From a virus: DNA of 41,537 nucleotides. The notes beneath the pieces were generated by a model. It was not told where the DNA came from. It did no database searches and was given only the letters and a program-made list of their open reading frames with translations. Below are positions 13,788-39,852 of the stretch, one piece after another (position 1 is the first letter of the stretch; every line of letters starts with the position of its first letter). Both the position numbers and the translations under genes were made by a program. The stretch spans positions 1 to 41,537 of the IMG/VR virus record IMGVR_UViG_3300035666_000054. One strand, written 5' to 3'.

Positions 13788-14101
13788 CAGGGCACCTGCT
13801 GCGGTTCAAGGTATTCATCACCTTGTTCGTCAATCAAGAACGTGTTGCCGTCTTCACTAATGACACCATACGGCGCACTCGTAAGCGGCGCATCCGGGCG
13901 AACAAAAGGCAGCGTAATTCTTTCAGTCTGACGAGCGGGTAAACGATACGGGTCAAGTTGATCAGTGCATCCTTCGCAAACGCGCAATCCGGGAGCATTA
14001 GGATCTGGTCCAAGTGCCCCTAATGGATATTTAATTTTGCAGCGGTCACAACAACCAATTGCAGCATAAGTCAGACCGCGTGTATCAAGAAAAAGCGGCA
14101 T
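13787..14101 (-). CDS. small Cys-rich (zinc-ribbon-like) structural protein
   Basis: The 104-residue protein has two cysteine clusters (CCDRC at about 17-21 and CEGC at about 42-45) that could bind zinc. After these come a basic Pro-rich stretch (LPARQTERITLPF) and a short C-terminal region (EDGNTFLIDEQGDEYL). Its start lies inside the end of the homing endonuclease gene upstream, and its GGAGG ribosome-binding site lies within that gene. Its stop overlaps the start of the 732-residue fibre (TGATG). Proteins of this kind recur next to adaptor and fibre genes in environmental phages; the function is unknown. Confidence 0.7.
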   Translation of the reverse strand: MPLFLDTRGLTYAAIGCCDRCKIKYPLGALGPDPNAPGLRVCEGCTDQLDPYRLPARQTERITLPFVRPDAPLTSAPYGVISEDGNTFLIDEQGDEYLEPQQVP

Positions 14102-14681
14102 TTATTTGAGCCTCCTTTCTTGATCTTTTGTTAGCCCAACCAATTTTTGCAGCATTTGCTCTTTGAGAAGAAATTTTTAATCTGTACTCTTCGTTGTTCA
14201 TACGCTCACGAAAAGTATCTGAAGCTCTTTTTCTGCAATCTTTATACCAATCAGGATTAGCTTCTTCTTTTTTCATTCTTGCACGAGCAGCTTTTCCTCT
14301 AAGAGCGCGATACTTTTTATCAAACTCAGGGTCAGCTTCTCTTTTATTTTTAAGAATAGATTCTCTTTTATAAGCCCCTTCAGAAGAGCCTCCAAATTCT
14401 GAACCTACGTTGTAACCATTTGGCCAACGAGTGTTCAAAAGTTCCATTGTTTCTCTTTCTGCAACAGGTAAAAACTCTTCTGAAACTTCTTTAAAAATTT
14501 CAAATTTAAAGTTTTCAATTCCATCACGCACAATAGCTTTGTGTAATTCTTGGCAAAGCCTTCTTTTAGATCTTGCTTCGTACTTATGAAGCGCCCATCT
14601 TTGATTGCAATTAGAAGAACGACCAACATACTTCATGCCGTTCTTTAGGTTTGTAATGATATAAATGCCGCAAACTTTCAT
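14085..14681 (-). CDS. GIY-YIG homing endonuclease (free-standing, AT-rich)
   Basis: The 198-residue protein has an N-terminal GIY-YIG nuclease domain: GIYIIT at 5-10, YVGR at 18-21, Arg28, a catalytic Glu near 76-80 and GYNVG at 89-93. Its basic tail resembles NUMOD-type DNA-binding repeats. It sits between adaptor 1 (3 bases away) and the Cys-rich gene, running 17 bases into the latter. Its DNA is visibly richer in A and T than its neighbours, a sign of recent insertion. Such enzymes nick or cut the allele lacking them and spread by repair. It is not placed inside an interrupted gene, so it looks free-standing rather than intron-encoded. Confidence 0.85.
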   Translation of the reverse strand: MKVCGIYIITNLKNGMKYVGRSSNCNQRWALHKYEARSKRRLCQELHKAIVRDGIENFKFEIFKEVSEEFLPVAERETMELLNTRWPNGYNVGSEFGGSSEGAYKRESILKNKREADPEFDKKYRALRGKAARARMKKEEANPDWYKDCRKRASDTFRERMNNEEYRLKISSQRANAAKIGWANKRSRKEAQINAAFS

Positions 14682-18818: not shown

Positions 18819-19754
18819 TCAAACTCCTTGCGCTTTGGCCTTTCTCTTCGCGAGCATCTTTGCTCTAAACTCAGGGTCAGCCCAACGCGCCTTCAACAAC
18901 TCTGCCTTCGCTGCCCGAACCTCAGGCGTGTTGTACGCCCTTGAATACTCCCCTGCTTGCTTACGAGCTTCTTCACTCTCGTAATATGCTTTGGACTTTT
19001 TAGAAGCCTCAGCACGGCGCTCCGGAGTCGATTTCGCGGCCTTAATCGCTAATCTAATACTATCTCCTTTCTGTGTCCATAGTCTTTTTGTGGCTTCGCT
19101 TTTGCGTTTCTTTTCCTCCGGCCTAGCGTGTGCTTCAGCACGAGACGCAGCCTGTTTAGCCCGGTATTCCTCAGACTCCCAGTTCTCACGCATCACTACG
19201 CTAATCCGGTTGCGTACCTCTTCGGTGCGGCTTTTAAGAATGGCTGCGCGAAGACGGGCGCGATAGGCCGGATCGTTTCTAAGTCGATTTTGAGATTCTA
19301 AAATCCTTTGCCTATGCTCTGGATTTTGCCAAGCTTTCTTGATGATTTTTGTCATCATCTCTCGCCACTCAGGCGTAGAGCATTGTTCTCGTTTTTTACG
19401 TAACCGTTCTTCGCTGTACTTTAATCCTGCGGTACCTTGTCCGCCTCCGGTTAAATTACAAAGTGATCCTGTGCGCAAATCCCGTCGCCCGTATTGCGCA
19501 ATTAAATCCCGCTCCATGGCAAAAGCGTCTTCTTCTTCGTCCATATACGCAGCCACGGTAATTTGCGGAACAAGACCCGCTGCCCGGATCTTATCCAGCA
19601 CACTTTGCAAAAAAGGATTAACGCACCGACGTTCCCAGTGATAACTGGCGCGGTCTAAATCTACGGTGCCTTTGCCAACGTAGATGGGTTGAAGCCCTTT
19701 CCCCGGACGGGGATCAAGATAAACGTACACATAAAACTTGCCCGGCTTCTGCAT
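18819..19754 (-). CDS. GIY-YIG homing endonuclease with NUMOD3-like repeats
   Basis: The 311-residue protein has a GIY-YIG domain (FYVYVYLDP at 7-15, IYVGKG at 24-29, Glu81 and NLTGGGQGT at 100-108). Multiple basic repeats typical of NUMOD3-type DNA-binding segments follow (for example KKAWQNPEHRQRI, RENWESEEYRAKQA, KARWADPEFRAKM). It lies between the major capsid gene and a small structural gene, flanked on both sides by hairpin-forming spacers. It appears intact and is not AT-rich like the other endonuclease, so the two were probably acquired separately. Confidence 0.85.
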   Translation of the reverse strand: MQKPGKFYVYVYLDPRPGKGLQPIYVGKGTVDLDRASYHWERRCVNPFLQSVLDKIRAAGLVPQITVAAYMDEEEDAFAMERDLIAQYGRRDLRTGSLCNLTGGGQGTAGLKYSEERLRKKREQCSTPEWREMMTKIIKKAWQNPEHRQRILESQNRLRNDPAYRARLRAAILKSRTEEVRNRISVVMRENWESEEYRAKQAASRAEAHARPEEKKRKSEATKRLWTQKGDSIRLAIKAAKSTPERRAEASKKSKAYYESEEARKQAGEYSRAYNTPEVRAAKAELLKARWADPEFRAKMLAKRKAKAQGV

Positions 19755-19842: not shown

Positions 19843-20757
19843 TTACAGACCAGCCGTACCGTATACGGTGCGGGGGTCAGTGAATCCCACAGCGTAACGT
19901 TCGGTCGATTTAAAGCGGGTGCTGTCAGTCTCGAAGTCGCCTTCCATTGACTTCTCAAGGCCGCGACGCATCATCAGCTTCAAGCCTTCCGGCGCGTCCG
20001 TCTTCACCCACCAAGCGGTGGTGGAGGTCAAACGCGAGAGGTTAGCCTGACCGCCAGCGAGGAGGCCCATCGACTTCACCGGGTTGATGTCGTTGTCGGC
20101 GGTGCCCGTACGGAGGACGCTCTTGAGGAGCACTTCCGCTTGGAACACGTTGGACGGCGACACAACGAGCTTCTCCGGGTTCAAACGGATGCGCTTGCCG
20201 TTGTTGTCAACAGCGTTGCGGATCTGAATGAGGAGCTGCTCAAGTGAGGTCTGCGAGAGAGCCGCCGGAGTCGTGAGCTGGTTGCTGAACGTTCCGTTGG
20301 CAATCGGGTGGCTGGTCGAAACCAGAGGCACGCCGTCGCCGCCGTTGAAGCCAGCGGTGAACGCACGGTTGAGGACGTTGGCGCAGAGGGTTTCCTTCGT
20401 CTCAATCAGCGACTGCGCCAAGTGCTTGGCATAGGTCTGACCGATACGGATGTGGTCACCATCTTCCACGAGCACCTTCGTGAGCGCGAAGGCAAGGCCA
20501 TAGACCTTGTACACATAGCGCTGCAAGAAGAGCACGCCACCGGCCTGATACGTGACCGGCATACCGTCCGGAAGTTCCGGAGCAGCGCCGAACCCGTAGA
20601 GCACCGGCTCTTCGTGGTAGTTGCGGGGAATGCCCTGCTGCTGGACGAAGACTTGCTTCCACTCGTCAGCACGCTGGTCATAAACGCCATCGAAAGCCTC
20701 GTTAAGAATAGGCTCAACAATGGAACGAAAATCAGTACTGCGCATTGGGACTGCCAT
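19843..20757 (-). CDS. major capsid protein (HK97-fold, Mu gpT-like)
   Basis: The 304-residue protein has features of Mu gpT-type major head subunits: an N-terminal helix (FRSIVEPILNEAFDGVYDQR), central ALTKVLVEDGDHIRIGQTYA, FTAGFNGGDGVPLVSTSHPI and the C-terminal VKTDAPEGLKLMMRRGLE with YAVGFTDPRTVYG. It forms the icosahedral shell. It is preceded by a strong GGAGGG site and follows scaffold and head-associated genes in canonical order. No N-terminal maturation protease domain is seen; the scaffold is encoded separately at 21921-22910. Confidence 0.9.
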   Translation of the reverse strand: MAVPMRSTDFRSIVEPILNEAFDGVYDQRADEWKQVFVQQQGIPRNYHEEPVLYGFGAAPELPDGMPVTYQAGGVLFLQRYVYKVYGLAFALTKVLVEDGDHIRIGQTYAKHLAQSLIETKETLCANVLNRAFTAGFNGGDGVPLVSTSHPIANGTFSNQLTTPAALSQTSLEQLLIQIRNAVDNNGKRIRLNPEKLVVSPSNVFQAEVLLKSVLRTGTADNDINPVKSMGLLAGGQANLSRLTSTTAWWVKTDAPEGLKLMMRRGLEKSMEGDFETDSTRFKSTERYAVGFTDPRTVYGTAGL

Positions 20758-21920: not shown

Positions 21921-22910
21921 TTAGCGAGAAGAATTGTTACGATCATATTCAGCATAACGCTTAATGTACTTCTGACGCAACTCTGGGTTATCCCAGACCC
22001 CTGCGTCAACAAGTGCTTGCTTGCGTTCAGGGCTGATATAGATCTCTTTTCGGGTAGACGGCGCAGCATATTCGCGCTTACCACCGACTGGGGGACCACC
22101 GCGTTTTGGGGCGGCCTTTGCTTTGCGGGCCTCGTTTTCCACGGTGTCTTCTCCGTATCGGTGGGGTAGGCGTTTGGCTACACGGTTATCCAACTCAATC
22201 CAATAATCTTCCGTTGCCGGGTTAAACCCTTCGGAAGCAAGGCGCTTATCAATGGCCTGAACAATGGCTGAGTCCTCGTCGTTGCCCTTGGGGTCATACC
22301 AATCGTTGGCACCGATCCATTCCTTGGCATACGCCGCCACACGCGGGTCTGGGCCTTCTTTTTTCGGCTCCAGTTTGGTTTGGCTTTTAAGGGCTTCGAG
22401 TTGCTTGCGGCGTTCCATGAGCTGATCACGGATGGCAAGCGCCTTGGCCACATCCTCGCCCTGCCCCTGTTCAATGGCCTTGGCAATAATGCGGTCTACG
22501 GTATGGATTTCAGCACTCGTTTCGTTGAGTCGCTGATCCGCAGCCTGTTGGTCAAACTCAGTCGTGCGACGTTCAACGGCATTCAACCGACGCTTAAACT
22601 CTTCGTTCTCTGCACGCAAGAATGCCAACTCGCGTTCTTTGTGCTCAATCGCCGCACGGCGACGGAACTTACGCTGCTGGCGCTGCGCACGCTTTTCTTC
22701 GGGGGTCTGAGCGCGACGTTTACCTTTGTCGTCTTCATCCGCCTCATCAGCGTCCGCAAGGCGCTCATCGCCCTCGTCTTCTTCCTCTGTCGAAACCTCT
22801 GCTTCAGCAAGCGCTTCCTCTTGAGCAGGCTCCTCGGGAGGAGTTTCGGTAACGACGTATTCCTCTTGGGAACTCTCGTCGTCTTCTTTTAGTACTTCGT
22901 CCTTAGCCAT
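21921..22910 (-). CDS. head scaffolding protein
   Basis: The 329-residue protein is extremely acidic in its first 60 residues. It then has a long basic and charged coiled coil (RAQRQQRKFRRRAAIEHKER and following, about 75-185) and a basic C-terminal part (YISPERKQALVDAGVWDNPE). Such acidic, helical, extended proteins upstream of the capsid gene are typical scaffolds that guide procapsid assembly and leave before packaging. No protease domain is visible, so exit rather than self-cleavage is likely. Confidence 0.75.
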   Translation of the reverse strand: MAKDEVLKEDDESSQEEYVVTETPPEEPAQEEALAEAEVSTEEEDEGDERLADADEADEDDKGKRRAQTPEEKRAQRQQRKFRRRAAIEHKERELAFLRAENEEFKRRLNAVERRTTEFDQQAADQRLNETSAEIHTVDRIIAKAIEQGQGEDVAKALAIRDQLMERRKQLEALKSQTKLEPKKEGPDPRVAAYAKEWIGANDWYDPKGNDEDSAIVQAIDKRLASEGFNPATEDYWIELDNRVAKRLPHRYGEDTVENEARKAKAAPKRGGPPVGGKREYAAPSTRKEIYISPERKQALVDAGVWDNPELRQKYIKRYAEYDRNNSSR

Positions 22911-22920
22911 GTGTTAGCCC

Positions 22921-23313
22921 TCAGATAAATGCTTTGATGGCAAGCGGGTCGCCGCTTACGCCACCTACGATGTCTAGATCGTTGAAGATCACAAACAACG
23001 CCTCTTCGTCGTTGCCGTAAGGAACCTTCCACCGATCTCCGCCGTACTTGGGAACCCGGACATAATCACCCGGTTTACACCAAGCGCCTTCCGGCCAAGA
23101 CTCCATCGTGTTGCGATTCTTGAAGGCCAAAGGTCCAAGACTGTGAACCTTTGCGATCTGGGTATTCCAGACCTCTGTCTCCCGCGTTTCGCTGTGCAAA
23201 ATAATACCCCCTGAAGAAGTTTTCTTCGGGCTACGAATTTGCACCAAAACACGCGAACCAAATGGAATCAAACCCGGCTCTACACTAGGAAAAGCCTCAT
23301 CCAACGTTGTCAT
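22921..23313 (-). CDS. GroES-like co-chaperonin
   Basis: The 130-residue protein has the layout of the GroES/Cpn10 fold: FGSRVLVQI at 18-26, the mobile-loop-like KKTSSGGIIL at 30-39, TQIAKVHSLGPLAF at 51-64, then WCKPGDYVRVPKYGG at 78-92 and a C-terminal FVIFNDLDIVG. The SGGIIL loop is the element by which GroES binds GroEL. Phage homologues (T4 gp31, RB49 CocO) replace host GroES for folding the capsid protein. Location between portal and scaffold fits a role in capsid folding with host GroEL. Confidence 0.8.
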   Translation of the reverse strand: MTTLDEAFPSVEPGLIPFGSRVLVQIRSPKKTSSGGIILHSETRETEVWNTQIAKVHSLGPLAFKNRNTMESWPEGAWCKPGDYVRVPKYGGDRWKVPYGNDEEALFVIFNDLDIVGGVSGDPLAIKAFI

Positions 23314-23507
23314 TAGAAATCCTCTCCGTCTTCTTCTTCTCTCAGAAGACGATCAATGTAAGTTAACGCGGCCTGCAACCCGGCGTAAGTGCCCACTGCC
23401 TTGCCATATTCAAACGAAGCATCCTTACCTTCCAGCTGCCGTTTCATCGCGTCGTGTGCGACACGAGCCTTGGCCCGCTCCAATTCGTCAATGATGCGTT
23501 CAATCAT
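23313..23507 (-). CDS. small helical protein
   Basis: The 64-residue protein is a charged helical peptide (RIIDELERAKARVAHDAMKR) ending in an acidic tail (REEEDGEDF). Its start overlaps the upstream stop (ATGA at 23504-23507), and its end abuts the GroES-like gene. It could be a small assembly factor; no family is recognised. Confidence 0.65.
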   Translation of the reverse strand: MIERIIDELERAKARVAHDAMKRQLEGKDASFEYGKAVGTYAGLQAALTYIDRLLREEEDGEDF

Positions 23508-23686: not shown

Positions 23687-26209
23687 CTATGGATTGATAC
23701 CCGTACCTGTTGAAACACCGACCTTCTCACCCGTAATGGCTTCCATCGCAGCAATCTGCTTAGCCGTGTCGTTATCTTCGCGGTTCGTAACCAACTTGAC
23801 GTTAAGTTCCGCCGCTTGACGCTTATCAAGTCGCTCCTGTTTGAGCATCTCACGCTGCAAGTTGTCTTGCTGACGCTGCTGAGTTTGAAGTTCTTCGCGC
23901 TGAAGCTTGGCCTGCGCCAATTGCAACTCGGCCTGCTTGACTTGAATGTTGGCCTGATCCGCCGCCGTCTTGCGCTGTACCTCGGCCATTTGAGCAGCGG
24001 CCTTCGGATCTTGCGGCGCGTTCATGCCCTGCATCTGCTGGAGTATGCCAATAGCCTGCTGAACGATCTGCGGAATCGCGCCAAAAGCTTGTGATGCGTC
24101 AGGCACCACACGTTGAGATGCCGCTGCCAACATTTGGTCAAATGATTTTTTGACCTCTTTATCGTTCACTTTCTGGAACTCTGTAATGCTACGCCCCGCA
24201 GCATCCGAGGCCACTTCAAATATATGGTTCGCGTACCAAAGAGCGATATGCTCCTTGATGTGATTAAGAATCGTGGGGATAAACGTTCCCGACATGAGCA
24301 TAGAAGAACCCAGAACGGGGCTCGTGAGATAATCCAAGTGAACTTGAATATGCGCAAGATGATCTTGTTCTGGGAACGCCGATATTGGACGCCCAAGCGT
24401 TGCAGCCACGTTTTCATTGACGGCATTTAACTCCTTGGGCGTTGGAGCGGGCACCAACAATTCTTTTGCGTTGGGCACACGCAGTTGTTTCAGAATGCGC
24501 TCTTCAACCTTGCGAATGTCATAAACCTGCGGCAAAGCAATCGCACGCTGAGCAATCGCCTGAACCTGAGCATAACGCTGGGCTTCGGAGAAAATGTTGG
24601 GGTCCGAAACCGGCACCACATCCATCGGGCCGTCAAAGTCAGATCGCTTAACGAGCAACTCGCCCGTCTCGTCCTTGACCTCCTCGTCCTCAAGATACAT
24701 CTGGTTAAGTCGGTGCAGCACTTTAAGCGTTCGGCCCATCGCATCATGCAATCGCGCATGAATCGCAGAGAACACCGCCATGCCCTGCTCAATACGGGCG
24801 AGCTGAGTCCCGACCGGCATGTTGCCTTGGTTTTCAGAAATATCTTCTAACGTTGTACGAACAACACCCTTACCGGCTTCGACCAAGAAGCCAAGGAGCG
24901 CCATCAAAGTTTGCGAGGGCTGGTTAAACGGAATCGGCATCGCTATCTTGCGAATGTCATCGCTAAATGCGCCGCCTTCAATCTCCTTTACTTCCGTTGG
25001 ATCAATGCGCTCGGACTGACCGCCTTCGCGACCGCCCTTGAGCTTGAGCATGCCGGGGAAGTTGGCAATGTGCGCAGAATCAAGCAATGCACGCAACGCA
25101 CCCGTCGCCGCTGCCGAAATACCGCCAATCATCTGCGGGATGCCGATGGGGTACGCACCACGCCACGGGACGAAGGGGAACTCAATGATCCACTGCATCT
25201 CCTCCAGCGTTTCGTCTTCTTCGCGCCAGTTGCGATAGATGCTCAAAACTTTGCCGGTGATCTTATCGACCGACACGATGTACGGCGCTAAACCGTACTC
25301 GTCTTCCAAGTCGGCAATGACGTAAATCTCAAAGATCGTACGCAGCCCATCGTCGTTGTAGGCGTTGGAGTTGCGGCCTTCGATCTTGTTGTTGGCCGTC
25401 TCAGACTTGGAGTATTCCGGCTCAACCGATGCCAGCGGAAGATCGACATCGCGATACATCCCCGAACGCACGCGCTGGAGATACTCAATCTCCGTCACGT
25501 ATTGAACGTGCGTCTTGCGCTCAGCGGAGTAAAAGTTCGTCGCCGCAAAGGGGAGGTAAATATCGTCAATCGCAATAAAAAGCGGCGTCGGACGCTTCTT
25601 GTTGGAATCCCAACTGAGCTTCAAATACTGAGCGCCACCGAGCGGCACTTGCGTCAGAAGCTGCTCCAACTCCGCCCGGAACTCGGGCATCTGCTGCGTC
25701 AACTGCCAATTGAGATACTTGGTCTTACGCTCCGCCTTCGCTACCTTTTCAGCGGTTGGCGTGCCAAAGATGTAATCCTTTGCAGGACCCTCAGGAGGGA
25801 AAAGCTCTTTGACGGCTCGGGCGGAGAAGTCCACGCAGACTTCTGTGAGCATCGGGTGCACGACTTTACTTGCGCCCTGAAACGAAGCGCCGCCCGGTGC
25901 ATCATCTCCAAGTCCCGTCCGTCGTAGTCCCTCTTCATACTGCTCATCACGCTTCGACCGCGCTTCCTTATCCTTGGCAATCTGACCCAGCAAATCCTGC
26001 GCAATCTGATCCATTTCCCGCTCGGGCATGGACTCGGCAAGGTTCGCGTAAAACTCAGAATCCGCAGCCGGGGCAGATTCCTCTTCCAGACGCACAATCG
26101 CGCCGCCGTCTTCGGTGTCCTCTACCTCGGCAATCTCATCCTCAGGTAGTTCCAACATCTCCCCAAGTTCTTCTTGGGCTTCGTCAAGCGGCTCGTTCTC
26201 AGACGCCAT
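23687..26209 (-). CDS. portal protein
   Basis: The 840-residue protein has an acidic N-terminus and then portal motifs: GASFQGASKVVHPMLTEVCV, KELFPPEGPAKDYIFG, a large mixed core with FPFVPWRGAYPIGIPQMIGG, and a long C-terminal coiled coil rich in Gln (QAELQLAQAKLQREELQTQ). It forms the dodecameric channel for DNA packaging at one capsid vertex. It overlaps the end of TerL by 11 bases, the normal order. The length is that of large podovirus-type portals with a barrel-like C-terminus. Confidence 0.85.
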   Translation of the reverse strand: MASENEPLDEAQEELGEMLELPEDEIAEVEDTEDGGAIVRLEEESAPAADSEFYANLAESMPEREMDQIAQDLLGQIAKDKEARSKRDEQYEEGLRRTGLGDDAPGGASFQGASKVVHPMLTEVCVDFSARAVKELFPPEGPAKDYIFGTPTAEKVAKAERKTKYLNWQLTQQMPEFRAELEQLLTQVPLGGAQYLKLSWDSNKKRPTPLFIAIDDIYLPFAATNFYSAERKTHVQYVTEIEYLQRVRSGMYRDVDLPLASVEPEYSKSETANNKIEGRNSNAYNDDGLRTIFEIYVIADLEDEYGLAPYIVSVDKITGKVLSIYRNWREEDETLEEMQWIIEFPFVPWRGAYPIGIPQMIGGISAAATGALRALLDSAHIANFPGMLKLKGGREGGQSERIDPTEVKEIEGGAFSDDIRKIAMPIPFNQPSQTLMALLGFLVEAGKGVVRTTLEDISENQGNMPVGTQLARIEQGMAVFSAIHARLHDAMGRTLKVLHRLNQMYLEDEEVKDETGELLVKRSDFDGPMDVVPVSDPNIFSEAQRYAQVQAIAQRAIALPQVYDIRKVEERILKQLRVPNAKELLVPAPTPKELNAVNENVAATLGRPISAFPEQDHLAHIQVHLDYLTSPVLGSSMLMSGTFIPTILNHIKEHIALWYANHIFEVASDAAGRSITEFQKVNDKEVKKSFDQMLAAASQRVVPDASQAFGAIPQIVQQAIGILQQMQGMNAPQDPKAAAQMAEVQRKTAADQANIQVKQAELQLAQAKLQREELQTQQRQQDNLQREMLKQERLDKRQAAELNVKLVTNREDNDTAKQIAAMEAITGEKVGVSTGTGINP

Positions 26210-27725
26210 AGGGGTTCATCCTCGGACGGGAATTAACAATGAGCCTCGGCTGCAACGGCTTAGGCTTACTCACGCTTATCATATCTTTATCCGCAAGGAA
26301 ACGTAAACCTTGGGTGCAAGCGTCCATCAAGTCATCGTGCCGGATGCTGCCTTCGCCGCTAAAAGCGCAGAGTTGATAGAGCAACGGCTCCGCCCACGAG
26401 CGAATCTGACCCTTGCGCTTCTCGGACTCTACAAACCACACCATCCCACCGGCAAACAAGTGCGAAACCATGTGAAGACGGGTGAGTTTCGACGCTTTGC
26501 CCGGGTTGTACGCATGCGCCAAGATATTTTCCCGCGCCAGCATCTGCCGGAGTGAGATTCCGCTGCCCTTGTCTTCAATCACGATGGTGTCGGGCTTACG
26601 GCCTGTTCCCATCTGCCGAGACGGACCAATCATCGGCTTAATCATCGGCCTCTGACTGTCGTCGCCGTAATAAACTTCCCGCTCTTTGTGCACGCGCTTG
26701 ATCAAATCCGGCATTCCGAGCCGGTCTTCCCAACAATCAAGCAGCATAATGTTCGGTTTGTCCTCGTTATAGAACAAACCCAACACCACACACGCACTCG
26801 GGTCGGCATCGGAGGTCTTCTTATCCCGCGTCTGCTCGGTAAAGGCGGTATCCATGCTCATTACGATGTGCTCAAACACCGGCAAGGGCTTTTTCGCAGG
26901 CCACAACTTGATCCAGTTGCGCTTAATGATCCCCTGCTCTTCGGGATTAAGCACTTCGGCGTGAATTTCCTGCCGTCCAAGCGTCGTGCCTTCAAATTTG
27001 AGCAGCTGTTGCTGAAAAGTCGGGGCCAAATTCGCAATATTTTCGTACGTAGACGCCCGAACGACCGCCACATCGTCGCCGTCGCGCTCAATGAGCTCGC
27101 GAATCAACGCTTTGGGCTTCGGCGTCGTCGTCGCCACGATTCTTGGGTGCTTTCCAAGACGCAAGGCAAACATAATCATGTCCCACGCCTCTTGGTCGTA
27201 CTGCCACGCAGCCAATTCGTCGCACCACGCGCCATGCCACTGACCACCGCGAAGCCGATCTGGCGTTTCGGCGCTGATTCCTTTGATGAGCGAGCCGTTC
27301 TTGAGCACAATTTCCGAAAGCGAACGGTTGTATTCCTTCACCACACGCTCTGGAATCACACTCATCAGCCCCGAGTCACCCTCAAAACACGTATCACGTA
27401 CGTCCGCAGAGGTCGGCGCACTCACGAGCCACCGGCTTTCGGGCTTTTGGTACGCCTGAAACCACAGCCACTCCGCTGCCGCACGGGTTTTACCTGCGCC
27501 ACGACCAGCCAACATAAGCCAAATGGTCCACTTACCCGGCGGCGGGGCCTGATGCTTGTGTCTTTTACCCACCCACTCCGTATGCGCATTTAGCGCAATC
27601 AACTCCTCGGTCGTGAGTTTGTTCAGATCCTCAAGGATCTTCTTGCGTTTCGGGCTGATTGGCTCTTGTTGAGGCGCAGCCGTAGCCGGCGCAGTAGGGG
27701 AGGGCGGGGGTCCCTGAGCAGCCAT
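26199..27725 (-). CDS. terL: terminase large subunit
   Basis: The 508-residue motor protein has Walker A GRGAGKT at 74-80 and Walker B WCDE ending at about 170. The coupling motif is VATTTP at 197-202. The C-terminal nuclease has its acidic residues at Asp292 (SMDTAF), Asp385 (IEDKGSG) and Asp464/465 (HDDLMDA). It cuts concatemeric DNA and drives it through the portal. All catalytic residues expected for a working enzyme are present. The small-subunit-like gene is not adjacent but lies 2.5 kb upstream at 30283-30831. Confidence 0.95.
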   Translation of the reverse strand: MAAQGPPPSPTAPATAAPQQEPISPKRKKILEDLNKLTTEELIALNAHTEWVGKRHKHQAPPPGKWTIWLMLAGRGAGKTRAAAEWLWFQAYQKPESRWLVSAPTSADVRDTCFEGDSGLMSVIPERVVKEYNRSLSEIVLKNGSLIKGISAETPDRLRGGQWHGAWCDELAAWQYDQEAWDMIMFALRLGKHPRIVATTTPKPKALIRELIERDGDDVAVVRASTYENIANLAPTFQQQLLKFEGTTLGRQEIHAEVLNPEEQGIIKRNWIKLWPAKKPLPVFEHIVMSMDTAFTEQTRDKKTSDADPSACVVLGLFYNEDKPNIMLLDCWEDRLGMPDLIKRVHKEREVYYGDDSQRPMIKPMIGPSRQMGTGRKPDTIVIEDKGSGISLRQMLARENILAHAYNPGKASKLTRLHMVSHLFAGGMVWFVESEKRKGQIRSWAEPLLYQLCAFSGEGSIRHDDLMDACTQGLRFLADKDMISVSKPKPLQPRLIVNSRPRMNPYGV

Positions 27726-35823: not shown

Positions 35824-36035
35824 CCGACGAAGAATTAGGCCAACTGATGCAACAGTCTTGGAACGAATACCCCAACGAGTGGAAGTTTGACACGTTTAAG
35901 TTTGGGCGACTCGTTGCCGCAGCCGAGCGGGAGGCGTGTGCGAAGGTGTGTGAGAAAGCCGTGGAATACAATCCAGACGATGCCGACGTAGCCTTTGCAT
36001 TTGCCGCCGCCATCCGTGCGAGGGGAGACAAATGA
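35820..36035 (+). CDS. conserved small phage protein (EREACAKVCE family)
   Basis: The 71-residue product carries FGRLVAAAEREACAKVCEKA and ends AAAIRARGDK. This pattern is common in small proteins of phages infecting beta- and gammaproteobacteria, usually in early or accessory regions. No biochemical role is known to me. Confidence 0.75.
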   Translation: MTDEELGQLMQQSWNEYPNEWKFDTFKFGRLVAAAEREACAKVCEKAVEYNPDDADVAFAFAAAIRARGDK

Positions 36036-36802
36036 CCCTCCCCGTGGCCGCCTTCTTGAACAAGGACTACCAGCTTCTCTTTGATTCTGAGCAGCGGTTT
36101 AAATCCTTTGCGGCTGCGGTAAGTCATATCGCCAAGGACTTGCAGATCAATACCGCCCACGGTCACGCGACCTTCCACGATGACTTGTTGGTGTGGTTTC
36201 GCAATCTGTTCTTTCTGACTGACGAGCGGTTTCAAGCAGCGTTCAGCGAGTTCAACGAGGACACGACCCTCCGCGCTCGCATGTGGCGTATTTATAACCT
36301 GTGCTGGGCGTTGAACCAAGGTTTAAACGTCGCGGGTGATGTGGTGGACATTGGTTGTTACGATGGCAAAACCACCAAGGTTTTCTGTAACTACAATAAT
36401 CCCGAGGTACTGGGGCGTAACCTGTACGTCTTTGACTTCTTTGATCACGCGCCCGAGGAATCCCGCAAGGCATCGCACGGCCCCGACTTGGCAGCGGTAG
36501 TCGAGAAGCGATTGAAGGCATACCGCCCTGTCGTGGTGGCGGGGAATGTGACTCAGACTATTCCGGCTGCGTTGCCGGATCGGATTTGCTTTGCGCACAT
36601 TGATTTAAATTACGCCGAAGCCGAGGCGCATGTATTCCCCGAGGTGTACGCACGGATGGAGCGTGGCGCGGTTGCGGTGTTTGATGACTTTGGATTTCGG
36701 CGTTATCGGCAATCGGCTGAAGCGCATCGGGAATTCTTGTCGGACAAGCCGGAGAAGATTCTGGAACTCCCGACCGGCCAAGGACTTTTTCTGAAGGTGT
36801 AA
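36032..36802 (+). CDS. TylF-like class I methyltransferase
   Basis: The 256-residue enzyme has motif I DVVDIGCYDGKTTKVF, an acidic second strand (NLYVFDFFDHAP), and the TylF-type segment FAHIDLNYAEAEAHVFPEVY with GAVAVFDDFGF. TylF-family enzymes O-methylate sugars. It is directly followed by a glycosyltransferase (TAATG overlap at 36802), which supports action on a glycan such as a modified surface sugar or a glycosylated phage component. The substrate is not known. Confidence 0.8.
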   Translation: MTLPVAAFLNKDYQLLFDSEQRFKSFAAAVSHIAKDLQINTAHGHATFHDDLLVWFRNLFFLTDERFQAAFSEFNEDTTLRARMWRIYNLCWALNQGLNVAGDVVDIGCYDGKTTKVFCNYNNPEVLGRNLYVFDFFDHAPEESRKASHGPDLAAVVEKRLKAYRPVVVAGNVTQTIPAALPDRICFAHIDLNYAEAEAHVFPEVYARMERGAVAVFDDFGFRRYRQSAEAHREFLSDKPEKILELPTGQGLFLKV

Positions 36803-37479
36803 TGATGAATCTATTTGTGTTCTTTCATGTGGGCGCGGACCTGTCGATGCCGACCAAGATGGTGCATTCGCTGAAGTCTGTGATGCCGGGTGCGGAAGTC
36901 GTGATGTGTACCGACGAGGCGACGCCCGATGTTGAGGGTGTGAACGAGGTCAAGCGCAGCAAGGGTGACGCATCGGAGATGATGTACTGGCGCACACGGG
37001 CGTTTGCCGAGGCCAAGATCACGCGCCCTGCGATGTACATTGATACGGACATGCTGTTCTTGTTGCCTGTGAACCCGGCTGCGTTATTGGCAGAGCGCGA
37101 GGTGATCTTCTGCCGCCGCTCGTTTGATCGGGACGCGGGGTTCAACGGCAAGCAGCGCGATGGGATGTTCAAGCAGTACGACGGGATACCGCTTGGGGTG
37201 TTGTACCCCTACCTTGGCTGCGCGACTGTGACCAAGAACTACCATGCGTGGAAAGCCATGACGCTTTTGATGGGGCTAATGAACCGGAACTTGCGGTCAT
37301 GGTACGGCGATCAAGAAGCCCTCAAGGTGTATTCGCAGATCCTGTACCCCGAACAGGTGGGCGAGATGCAGGAGCTCGACTATGCTTGCCTGCCCGACAA
37401 GGCTCCCGAGGGGCATGTCCCCCACATCATGCACTTCAAGGGCGCGGCCCGTAAGCAAGCTTTTTTGAATTCGTTTTAG
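36802..37479 (+). CDS. glycosyltransferase-like protein (DxD, GT-A type)
   Basis: The 225-residue protein has an N-terminal Rossmann-like part (LFVFFHVGADLSMPTKMVHS), a DxD motif in MYIDTDMLFLLPV and a C-terminal HIMHFKGAAR of the type found in GT8-like transferases. It would use a nucleotide sugar with a divalent metal in the cytoplasm. It overlaps the upstream methyltransferase stop (TAATG). Whether it modifies host polysaccharide or phage product cannot be told. Confidence 0.75.
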   Translation: MMNLFVFFHVGADLSMPTKMVHSLKSVMPGAEVVMCTDEATPDVEGVNEVKRSKGDASEMMYWRTRAFAEAKITRPAMYIDTDMLFLLPVNPAALLAEREVIFCRRSFDRDAGFNGKQRDGMFKQYDGIPLGVLYPYLGCATVTKNYHAWKAMTLLMGLMNRNLRSWYGDQEALKVYSQILYPEQVGEMQELDYACLPDKAPEGHVPHIMHFKGAARKQAFLNSF

Positions 37480-37488
37480 GAGACAAGG

Positions 37489-37794
37489 ATGAGCGAAGAA
37501 TTTGATTATTTGAAGCTGCCCGAAGCCAAGCAGGAGGAGGAGGTTTGGTGCACGATTGGTGAGTCGGGCAAGCTCGACGTATTTAAATGGGACTTCGTGG
37601 AGCGACAGGCTGCGGCGTACGACCGGCATCCGGCGAATCTGCCGAGAGATAACGCGCAGATCATTTGCAAGTTAGCGGTGCTGATTCGTGAGCAGACCAT
37701 TGAAAACTGCATGCGGGTGCTTGGCAAGTACAAGGAGCACGCCGTTGATAGCAGCGTGATCTTTCTGAAGGAGCCAGAGGTTGATAATGAGTGA
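37489..37794 (+). CDS. hypothetical protein within glycosyltransferase cluster
   Basis: The 101-residue soluble protein (SEEFDYLKLPEAKQEEEVWC; FKWDFVERQAAAYDRHPANL; KLAVLIREQTIENCMRVLGK) shows no known motif. AGGAGA precedes its ATG, and its end overlaps the next gene. It may assist the flanking transferases. Confidence 0.65.
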   Translation: MSEEFDYLKLPEAKQEEEVWCTIGESGKLDVFKWDFVERQAAAYDRHPANLPRDNAQIICKLAVLIREQTIENCMRVLGKYKEHAVDSSVIFLKEPEVDNE

Positions 37795-38470
37795 CGAAGG
37801 CTTGCGGATCTTTGTCGGCTGGGACAGCCGCGAGGATATTGCGTATCAAGTCTGCAAGCGCAGCATTGAGAAGCATGCGTCGATCTTGACGGATGTACGT
37901 CCGATTAAGCAGTACGAGTTGCGTGGGCAGCGGGTGTATACGCGGCCTGTGGATACGATGTCATCGACTGAGTTTTCATTCAGCCGTTTCTTGACTCCAT
38001 ATCTCGCGGGGTACACCGGCTGGGCGGTCTTTGTAGACTGCGATTTTTTGTTTCGCGGGGACGTTGCGGGATTGCTTGATCACGCCGACCGGACAAAAGC
38101 GTGCATGCTTGTAAAGCACGACTATCGGCCTACCGAGGCCGTCAAAATGGACAACAAGCCGCAACATCAATATCCCCGAAAGAACTGGTCTTCGATGATG
38201 CTTATCAACTGTGCGCACCCACAAGTCAAGGCGTTGACTCCGGAGGTCGTGAACAGGGAAACTGGTATGTTCCTGCATCGGTTCCAATGGCTGACCGACG
38301 ATGTGATTGGCGACCTGCCGATTACTTGGAATTACCTAGAAGGTTGGTACACGAGTAACGACTGCCCGAATCCACAGGCGGTGCACTTCACCCGTGGGGG
38401 TCCGTGGTTCATGGACTATAAGAACGTGGAATACGCCAACGAATGGAACCGCATTGCGGCAACGATATGA
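37787..38470 (+). CDS. glycosyltransferase-like protein (GT8-like)
   Basis: From ATG 37787 the 227-residue product reads LRIFVGWDSREDIAYQVCKR, a pattern of GT8-like transferases. VFVDCDFLF carries the DxD metal site, and the final VHFTRGGPWFMDYK fits the C-terminal catalytic His region. It is probably a second nucleotide-sugar transferase of the cluster. Its start overlaps the hypothetical gene before it by eight bases, and its stop overlaps the next start. Confidence 0.8.
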   Translation: MSDEGLRIFVGWDSREDIAYQVCKRSIEKHASILTDVRPIKQYELRGQRVYTRPVDTMSSTEFSFSRFLTPYLAGYTGWAVFVDCDFLFRGDVAGLLDHADRTKACMLVKHDYRPTEAVKMDNKPQHQYPRKNWSSMMLINCAHPQVKALTPEVVNRETGMFLHRFQWLTDDVIGDLPITWNYLEGWYTSNDCPNPQAVHFTRGGPWFMDYKNVEYANEWNRIAATI

Positions 38471-39852
38471 AACTGACCAAGAAAGAAATCATTGTGGAAG
38501 TTGAGAAACGCTTTCAGGCCAAGCGGTATGACGATGCGTTGGATTTGTGTAACTACGGCATCGCCAAGCACCCGACGAGTGGGATTCTGCACCGTGCCAA
38601 GGCGAAGCTCCTTCAAACGATGGGTCGGTTTCGCGAGGCGATTAAGTCTTACACGCTCTTGACCGAAGCCAATAACACGTTAGCGGAAGACTTTTACAAC
38701 CGGGGCATGTGTCATAACGAACTGCAAAAGTACGAAGAAGCGATTGCGGATCAGACCGCTGCCCTCAAGGTTGACCCGAAGTACCACATGTCGCACATGC
38801 AGCGTGGGGCGGCGTACTGGGAACTGCGGCAATGGGATAAGGCGTTGGAAGACTTCAAGGCTGCGAAAGAACTTAGACCCGACGACCCGAACTCCAACTG
38901 GATCTTGGGGTTGCTTGCGCTACAGATGGGCGACTTCAAGACGGGGTGGCCGAACTATCACACTCGGTGGCAGAGCGAGCGATTTAAATCACCGCGACTG
39001 ACGACGAACAAGCCCGAGTGGACGAAGACAAGCGGAGCCAAGAGCGTCCTTGTCTGGGGGGAGCAGGGCATCGGGGATCAAGTGATCTATGCGTCGTTGC
39101 TCCCGGCTGTTCGTGCTTTGTCCGAGCAGGTAACAGCGATGGTCGAGCCGCGATTGATCCCGCTTTTCTCACGCTCAATGCCGGACATTGAGTTCATCCC
39201 GAACAACTCGCAGGTCCCGGCGGACAAGCACGATGCGCAGATTCCCTTTGCGAGTCTTGGGGCATCGCTGATTGGTGAGCTGCGGGACATCCCGACCTAT
39301 GCCAAGCGCAACTTTCTGAAGCCCGACCCGGAACGGGTAATCAAGCTGCGCGAGGAACTCGGGATCAAGAACGGCGAGTTTGTGGTCGGTATTTCTTGGG
39401 TCAGCGCGGCCATCAAGATTGGTCCGCACAAGAGCATGACTTTGACGGACATGCTGCCGATCTTGTCGATGGAGGGTGTCCGCTTTGTCAATCTGCAATA
39501 CGGTCATGTGAAGCAGGACATTGCAGACTTTGAGGAGAAGTCGGGTATCAAGATCCTTCAGTCAAGTGTAGACAATTGGAAGGACTTGGATGGTCTTGCC
39601 GCGCTTTGTAGCGTTTGTGATGTCATCGTGTCGATCAGCAGTTCTACGGTTCACATGGCCGGAGGTATCGGCGTACCCGTTATGCTGATGGATGCTAATA
39701 AACTCTGGTACTGGGGCAACAAGGACTCAGAGGGTCATAGCCTTTGGTATCCGTCTGTGAAGATCTTCCCCCGAGGCAATGTTATTGCACCGTGGAAGCC
39801 GCAGATTGAAGCTGTAGCCTATGAGATACACACGATGAAGAACAGGTCGTGA
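38467..39852 (+). CDS. TPR-repeat protein with GT9/GT41-like glycosyltransferase domain
   Basis: The 461-residue protein has four or more TPR units in its first 165 residues (RFQAKRYDDALDLCNYGIAK, DFYNRGMCHNELQKYEEAIA, YWELRQWDKALEDFKAAKEL). A GT-B domain follows (VLVWGEQGIGDQVIYASLLP; EFVVGISWVSAAIKIGPHKS; VIVSISSSTVHMAGGIGVPV). TPR-GT fusions resemble O-GlcNAc-transferase-like or heptosyltransferase-like enzymes that glycosylate proteins or LPS. It is the largest enzyme of the plus-strand block. Confidence 0.8.
   Translation: MKLTKKEIIVEVEKRFQAKRYDDALDLCNYGIAKHPTSGILHRAKAKLLQTMGRFREAIKSYTLLTEANNTLAEDFYNRGMCHNELQKYEEAIADQTAALKVDPKYHMSHMQRGAAYWELRQWDKALEDFKAAKELRPDDPNSNWILGLLALQMGDFKTGWPNYHTRWQSERFKSPRLTTNKPEWTKTSGAKSVLVWGEQGIGDQVIYASLLPAVRALSEQVTAMVEPRLIPLFSRSMPDIEFIPNNSQVPADKHDAQIPFASLGASLIGELRDIPTYAKRNFLKPDPERVIKLREELGIKNGEFVVGISWVSAAIKIGPHKSMTLTDMLPILSMEGVRFVNLQYGHVKQDIADFEEKSGIKILQSSVDNWKDLDGLAALCSVCDVIVSISSSTVHMAGGIGVPVMLMDANKLWYWGNKDSEGHSLWYPSVKIFPRGNVIAPWKPQIEAVAYEIHTMKNRS

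Follow-up and report, generated by a model that had tools for sequence, protein, structure and literature searches.

A GroES-type co-chaperonin gene in a phage head operon, with a longer mobile loop and a probable role as a lid for host GroEL

The window examined here (the whole 41,537-nucleotide stretch taken from IMG/VR virus record IMGVR_UViG_3300035666_000054) encodes a Cpn10/GroES protein at positions 22921-23313 on the minus strand, which confirms the observation made in the initial annotation. We put at roughly three chances in four the reading that this protein is a late-expressed phage co-chaperonin, acting as a lid for host GroEL and folding a head protein, most likely the major capsid protein (MCP). 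The gene is largely an ordinary phage GroES, apart from a consistently longer GroEL-gripping arm. As far as our literature search reached, what is new is the near-invariable pairing of GroES with this MCP in the absence of a phage GroEL, together with a four-residue lengthening of the mobile loop on the limb opposite to that lengthened in T4 gp31.

Identification of the gene and its predicted fold

The initial annotation had the ORF exactly right, and Pfam, PHROG and fold matches agree with its GroES-like assignment. The reading frame starts with ATG, while the plus strand across the same interval is closed by stops. The 130-aa product scores 34.3 bits with Pfam Cpn10 (PF00166; E 2.4e-08; cut-off 21.1) and also matches the PHROG family 'co-chaperonin GroES' (E 4.2e-09), and all 61 aligned relatives independently match Cpn10 above the Pfam cut-off. 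A phmmer search of the PDB with the window protein returned weak matches to Cpn20/23 and Hsp10 chains; a profile of the 61 relatives reached GroES and Cpn10 chains with E values as low as 1e-12 to 1e-21, with E. coli GroES at E 6.5e-06.

The single-chain AF2 model (mean pLDDT 92.1, pTM 0.86) has the beta-barrel fold of GroES. Foldseek against the PDB matched it to 4pj1 (E 2.2e-06, TM 0.65 on the target), and the best matches were lids from chaperonin complexes of humans, bacteria and Thermus; T4 gp31 ranks 23rd. VIA-align gave its best Z, 10.0, to 8wuc (94 residues aligned, rmsd 2.9), and Cpn10-type chains fill the first 16 rows (Z 10.0 to 7.2). When the model is compared with a library of viral structures, the leading entries bear the name co-chaperonin GroES, the best with a TM of 0.90.

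Dehydrogenases also appear in the VIA-align list, below the Cpn10 chains at Z 6.4 and lower, as would be expected if the product were a GroES-like barrel of some other family, such as a dehydrogenase domain; a chance ORF would be the other form of false identification. However, Cpn10 entries head both fold lists, the Pfam match recurs in every aligned relative, and the dN/dS ratio is low (211 pairs of close relatives, which share ancestry and are not independent, have a median of 0.07, and none exceeds 0.15). Pairs that include the window sequence and give a ratio range from 0.05 to 0.14 (Nei-Gojobori); of the 11 pairs with the window sequence, 4 are saturated at synonymous sites and give none, and in one more, that with relative L088, the synonymous distance is 4.19. 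Judged by these ratios, the ORF is under strong purifying selection as a protein, which excludes a chance ORF, and we regard false identification as refuted, with a probability that is close to nil.

The head operon and its conservation among relatives

In the order of transcription on the minus strand, the genes run terminase, portal, a 64-aa ORF, GroES, a scaffold-like gene, two genes (178 and 186 aa) and finally the MCP. The terminase large subunit (26199-27725, minus) matches Pfam Terminase_6N and Terminase_6C above cut-off, the portal protein (23687-26209, minus; 840 aa, 93.5 kDa) matches portal family phrog_1216, and the MCP (19843-20757, minus; 304 aa, 33.4 kDa), which is the proposed client, matches Pfam Phage_capsid_4 and Mu-like gpT above cut-off. 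A position of the gene between portal and scaffold had been proposed; the portal does lie upstream and the order is correct, but the second neighbor belongs to no named family and its identity as a scaffold is only plausible. This acidic protein (21921-22910, minus; 329 aa, pI 5.0) is modeled with long helices and has no PDB fold match at E < 0.5. Its relatives fall in a nameless PHROG family in 27 of 45 cases, the window's own protein falls in none, and weak coiled-coil Pfam matches occur in 3 of the 45.

The 64-aa ORF (23313-23507, minus) overlaps the GroES start in the sequence TAATG, and only 10 bases separate the GroES stop from the start of the scaffold-like gene, so these three genes are probably co-expressed. 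An ORF of 45-110 aa occupies the same place in 91 of 101 loci from relatives, a few of which are probably spurious. This conserved companion has no match in Pfam or PHROG, carries the conserved pattern FEYG..VG..AG..AA, and is a possible partner of GroES.

Other features of the window include a homing endonuclease (PHROG) at 14085-14681 (minus) and, at 18819-19754 (minus), a short way downstream of the MCP gene, a gene that we take to resemble a GIY-YIG endonuclease, an assignment without Pfam support. At 36032-39852 (plus), a methyltransferase and a TPR protein, both above the Pfam cut-off, lie in a row with a weak glycosyltransferase-8 match, and the group looks like a sugar-modification cassette.

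Relatives of the GroES gene were found by tblastn in 14 phage records, with identities of 64% in four Caulobacter phages, 52% in a spring-water phage, and 30-36% in pelagiphages, roseophages, a gammaproteobacterial phage and cyanophages; in several records the close relative is already annotated as GroES. The earlier view that phage co-chaperonins are known mainly from T4-like phages was thus too narrow, since GroES can be found, by annotation or by search, in pelagiphages, roseophages, cyanophages, Caulobacter phages, siphoviruses and jumbo phages. The suggestion that the window comes from a podovirus gains support through relatives alone (HTVC023P-type phages are described as Podoviridae; PMC9599517), but the labels on other relatives read Siphoviridae or Myoviridae. 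Among the relatives the series again runs from portal through small ORF(s), GroES, a scaffold-size gene and two further genes to the MCP, in a shorter form in some and with extra genes separating GroES from the MCP in one. Portal, GroES, scaffold-like gene, two further genes and MCP still follow one another at 25-39% GroES identity, in a pelagiphage, a roseophage and a gammaproteobacterial phage.

Searching with the MCP instead gave 22 phage records, several of them near-duplicates, of which 21 carry a Cpn10 gene (14 from the tblastn search, 4 from annotation and confirmed, 2 displaced genes from a whole-record search, and 1 twin record). The one record with no Cpn10 match, MT836833, is a 10.8-kb fragment and cannot decide the matter. 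Displacement of GroES from the head cluster is seen in three records, yet the gene is present elsewhere in each genome. Two phages (L170 and L171) seemed on a first count to carry this MCP without GroES, a reading that was dropped when the whole-record search found the gene elsewhere in both. In vir526 (BK063670), which bears a Methanomicrobiales host label and no Cpn60, groS (L277:2827-3183) lies beside the terminase gene and away from the head genes.

Among 180 unique contigs selected by their MCP, GroES is present in all 115 that have at least 4 kb upstream. The 65 with less than 4 kb upstream were left out of that count; GroES occurs in 21 of them, and the 44 without it have 0 to 2304 upstream bases, the usual gap between GroES and MCP being 1919 to 3331 bases. 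It should be noted that part of the MCP contigs share 83-100% MCP identity and, as close relatives, are not independent, all contigs together forming 43 MCP clusters at 90%. Across these 43 clusters GroES and MCP distances are correlated (Mantel rho 0.71, reached in 0 of 999 permutations). Co-occurrence and correlated distances would also follow from the shared descent of linked genes, and this counts against the proposed role. Host labels of MAG contigs with this MCP come from many phyla, which suggests unreliable binning.

No Cpn60 (a phage GroEL) was found in the window or in any of 14 phage records. With E. coli GroES as the query, a match was detected in 89 of 50,697 phage records; the true number must be at least this, since lids as divergent as those of the window's family escape the query.

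Mobile loop, roof and C-terminal tail

The SGGIIL motif had been singled out as resembling a mobile loop, and it holds up well. It occupies residues 34-39 (23197-23214, minus) within SSGGIIL (residues 33-39), aligns with GGIVL of GroES, and forms a conserved, GroEL-binding-like tip, in which IIL is the putative binding tripeptide; the tripeptide is wholly hydrophobic in 56 of the 61 relatives. On sequence grounds, the protein thus has the mobile loop with a hydrophobic tripeptide tip that is expected of Cpn10/GroES.

Loop lengths were measured with three glycine anchors, and the control set comprised 46 cellular GroES, mostly from Alphaproteobacteria and MAGs (60 loci, 54 of which gave a domain, with 8 at 80 bits or less dropped as phage-like or partial). 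From the tip glycine (Gly36) to the invariant Gly60, 24 residues are found in 59 of the 61 phage relatives, the two exceptions having 25 and 32, against 20 in all 46 cellular sequences and in E. coli GroES. The ascending limb before the tip measures 15 residues in 54 of 61 phage relatives and in 45 of 46 cellular sequences. The total between anchors is 39 residues in the window's family, 40 in T4 gp31 and 35 in cellular GroES. The lengthened descending limb lies at 23164-23193 (minus), where the AF2 model predicts a helix over residues 41-50. The 61 sequences share descent, and the extension therefore represents one event or a few. In a tree of phage and cellular GroES, the cellular sequences form one clade with a support of only 0.54, and we draw no evidence from it. 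No published description of an extension on this limb was found in our literature search, a main viral-chaperonin survey lying outside its scope.

More distant members keep a similar descending stretch (24 residues in ct2G2228, 25 in ct2os315), and two displaced GroES are unlike the family in loop length (20 in vir526, 28 in ct7ZZ929). An Alcaligenes phage has a descending stretch of 25 residues and also a lengthened ascending limb. Its GroES (QDWS535; L166:3348-3689) has 47 residues between anchors against 35-39 in the others, and its tip region is disrupted, without a KTKGGI-type tip. This disrupted tip and the aberrant loop lengths of the two displaced GroES weigh against the proposed role as a GroEL lid.

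The roof segment (residues 61-81; 23071-23133, minus) is retained and ends with the family motif WCK.GD, W78 being present in 90% of the 61 relatives; between anchors it measures 22 residues in the window, 19 in some relatives, 18 in E. coli GroES and 11 in gp31. A C-terminal extension containing DPLAIKAFI (residues 118-130; 22924-22962, minus) follows, with P123 in 82% of the 61. The tail is conserved in the pattern [D/N]P..I..F/I and is not seen in cellular GroES.

These features bear on two alternatives. The Cpn10 fold could have been co-opted for head assembly or a structural role and have lost GroEL binding; in its favor, the gene directly precedes the scaffold-like gene, its tail is conserved and foreign to E. 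coli GroES, and tips are altered in some members. A hydrophobic tip tripeptide kept in 56 of 61 sequences would, however, be needless for a purely structural use, and we consider such a recruitment improbable. The gene may also be a plain GroES supplement, which provides more lid or replaces limiting host GroES with neither an adapted chamber nor a dedicated client. The retained roof and tip fit this explanation, as does an MCP whose size suits the ordinary chamber, but two things speak against it, namely that the gene keeps its place next to the head genes even in distant relatives and that the loop extension runs through the family yet occurs in none of the 46 cellular GroES. We judge it unlikely while granting it some weight.

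Proposed role and comparison with known systems

The simplest reading of the conserved hydrophobic tip, the lack of a detectable phage GroEL and the tie to the MCP remains a lid that caps host GroEL for the benefit of a head protein. GroES would be made together with the late head genes and assemble as a ring, presumably a heptamer, which, given the conservation of its hydrophobic loop tip, would dock on host GroEL by that tip. It would then shut a head protein, most likely the MCP, into the chamber to fold there, with the phage supplying the lid and the host the chamber. The four added residues of the descending limb may raise the lid or alter its affinity.

The GroEL chamber holds about 60 kDa. 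The MCP of 33.4 kDa fits an ordinary chamber, so the 'bigger client' reason known from T4 does not carry over; neither the MCP nor the 93.5-kDa portal calls for a gp31-like enlargement in any obvious way. The proposal of a phage-adapted GroEL chamber gains some support from the mobile loop, longer by four residues in 59 of 61 relatives, while the small size of the MCP tells against its T4 rationale. The need for a phage lid may instead lie in amount, timing or chamber chemistry. A bolder and rather doubtful version holds that the longer GroEL-binding loop was reached independently of T4, with four residues added on the opposite limb and the roof kept, and that the small MCP cannot fold without a dedicated lid adapted to chamber chemistry or timing and not to client size. 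If the MCP does depend on the lid, a widespread lineage of freshwater and marine phages would stand alongside T4 in having a dedicated co-chaperonin, here with a small client, and a direct test would become possible of whether phage lids serve cage size or some other reason. For the specialist the gene itself is expected, and more is to be learned from the geometry of the loop and from the near-absolute tie to the capsid gene.

The gene is indeed no surprise, as GroES is already known from related HTVC023P-type podoviruses, of which it is a core gene (PMC9599517). It is also labelled in the genome figure of CRP-901 (PMC10149686), and a siphovirus GroES was reported in 2015 in a paper that cites earlier myovirus and podovirus cases (PMC4294664). 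The closest likeness is to Caulobacter phages RW and KcrB (Caudoviricetes, about 62 kb), whose GroES is 64% identical over 98% of the protein and occupies the same site, among a portal-size gene, a 64-aa ORF and a scaffold-like gene; no difference of substance is seen, the N-terminus in RW being longer (143 aa). The HTVC023P-like head module (portal, small ORF(s), GroES, scaffold-like gene, two genes and a Phage_capsid_4/gpT MCP) is found in the window, and HTVC023P-type pelagiphages and CRP-901-type roseophages share with it both this gene order and the four-residue loop extension. Their GroES differ in having about 30% identity and longer N-terminal extensions, and HTVC023P has a shorter roof (19 against 22). 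E. coli GroES has in common with the window protein the Cpn10 family, the GGI.L tip and the roof segment, but its descending limb is shorter (20 against 24 residues) and it lacks the C-terminal extension.

T4 gp31, a phage lid for host GroEL to which we liken the window GroES by analogy, also matches the Cpn10 fold, and its total loop is close in length (40 against 39). The limbs are apportioned differently, with 19 ascending and 21 descending residues in gp31 against 15 and 24 in the window; the window protein thus keeps the ascending limb of GroES, and its roof of 22 residues shows none of the loss seen in gp31. The gp31 gene lies outside the T4 head cluster, whereas the window gene lies inside the head operon. 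Finally, gp31 substitutes for GroES on host GroEL to fold gp23, a client of about 56 kDa, in a slightly larger chamber (PMC6318259), as compared with the 33.4-kDa MCP of the window.
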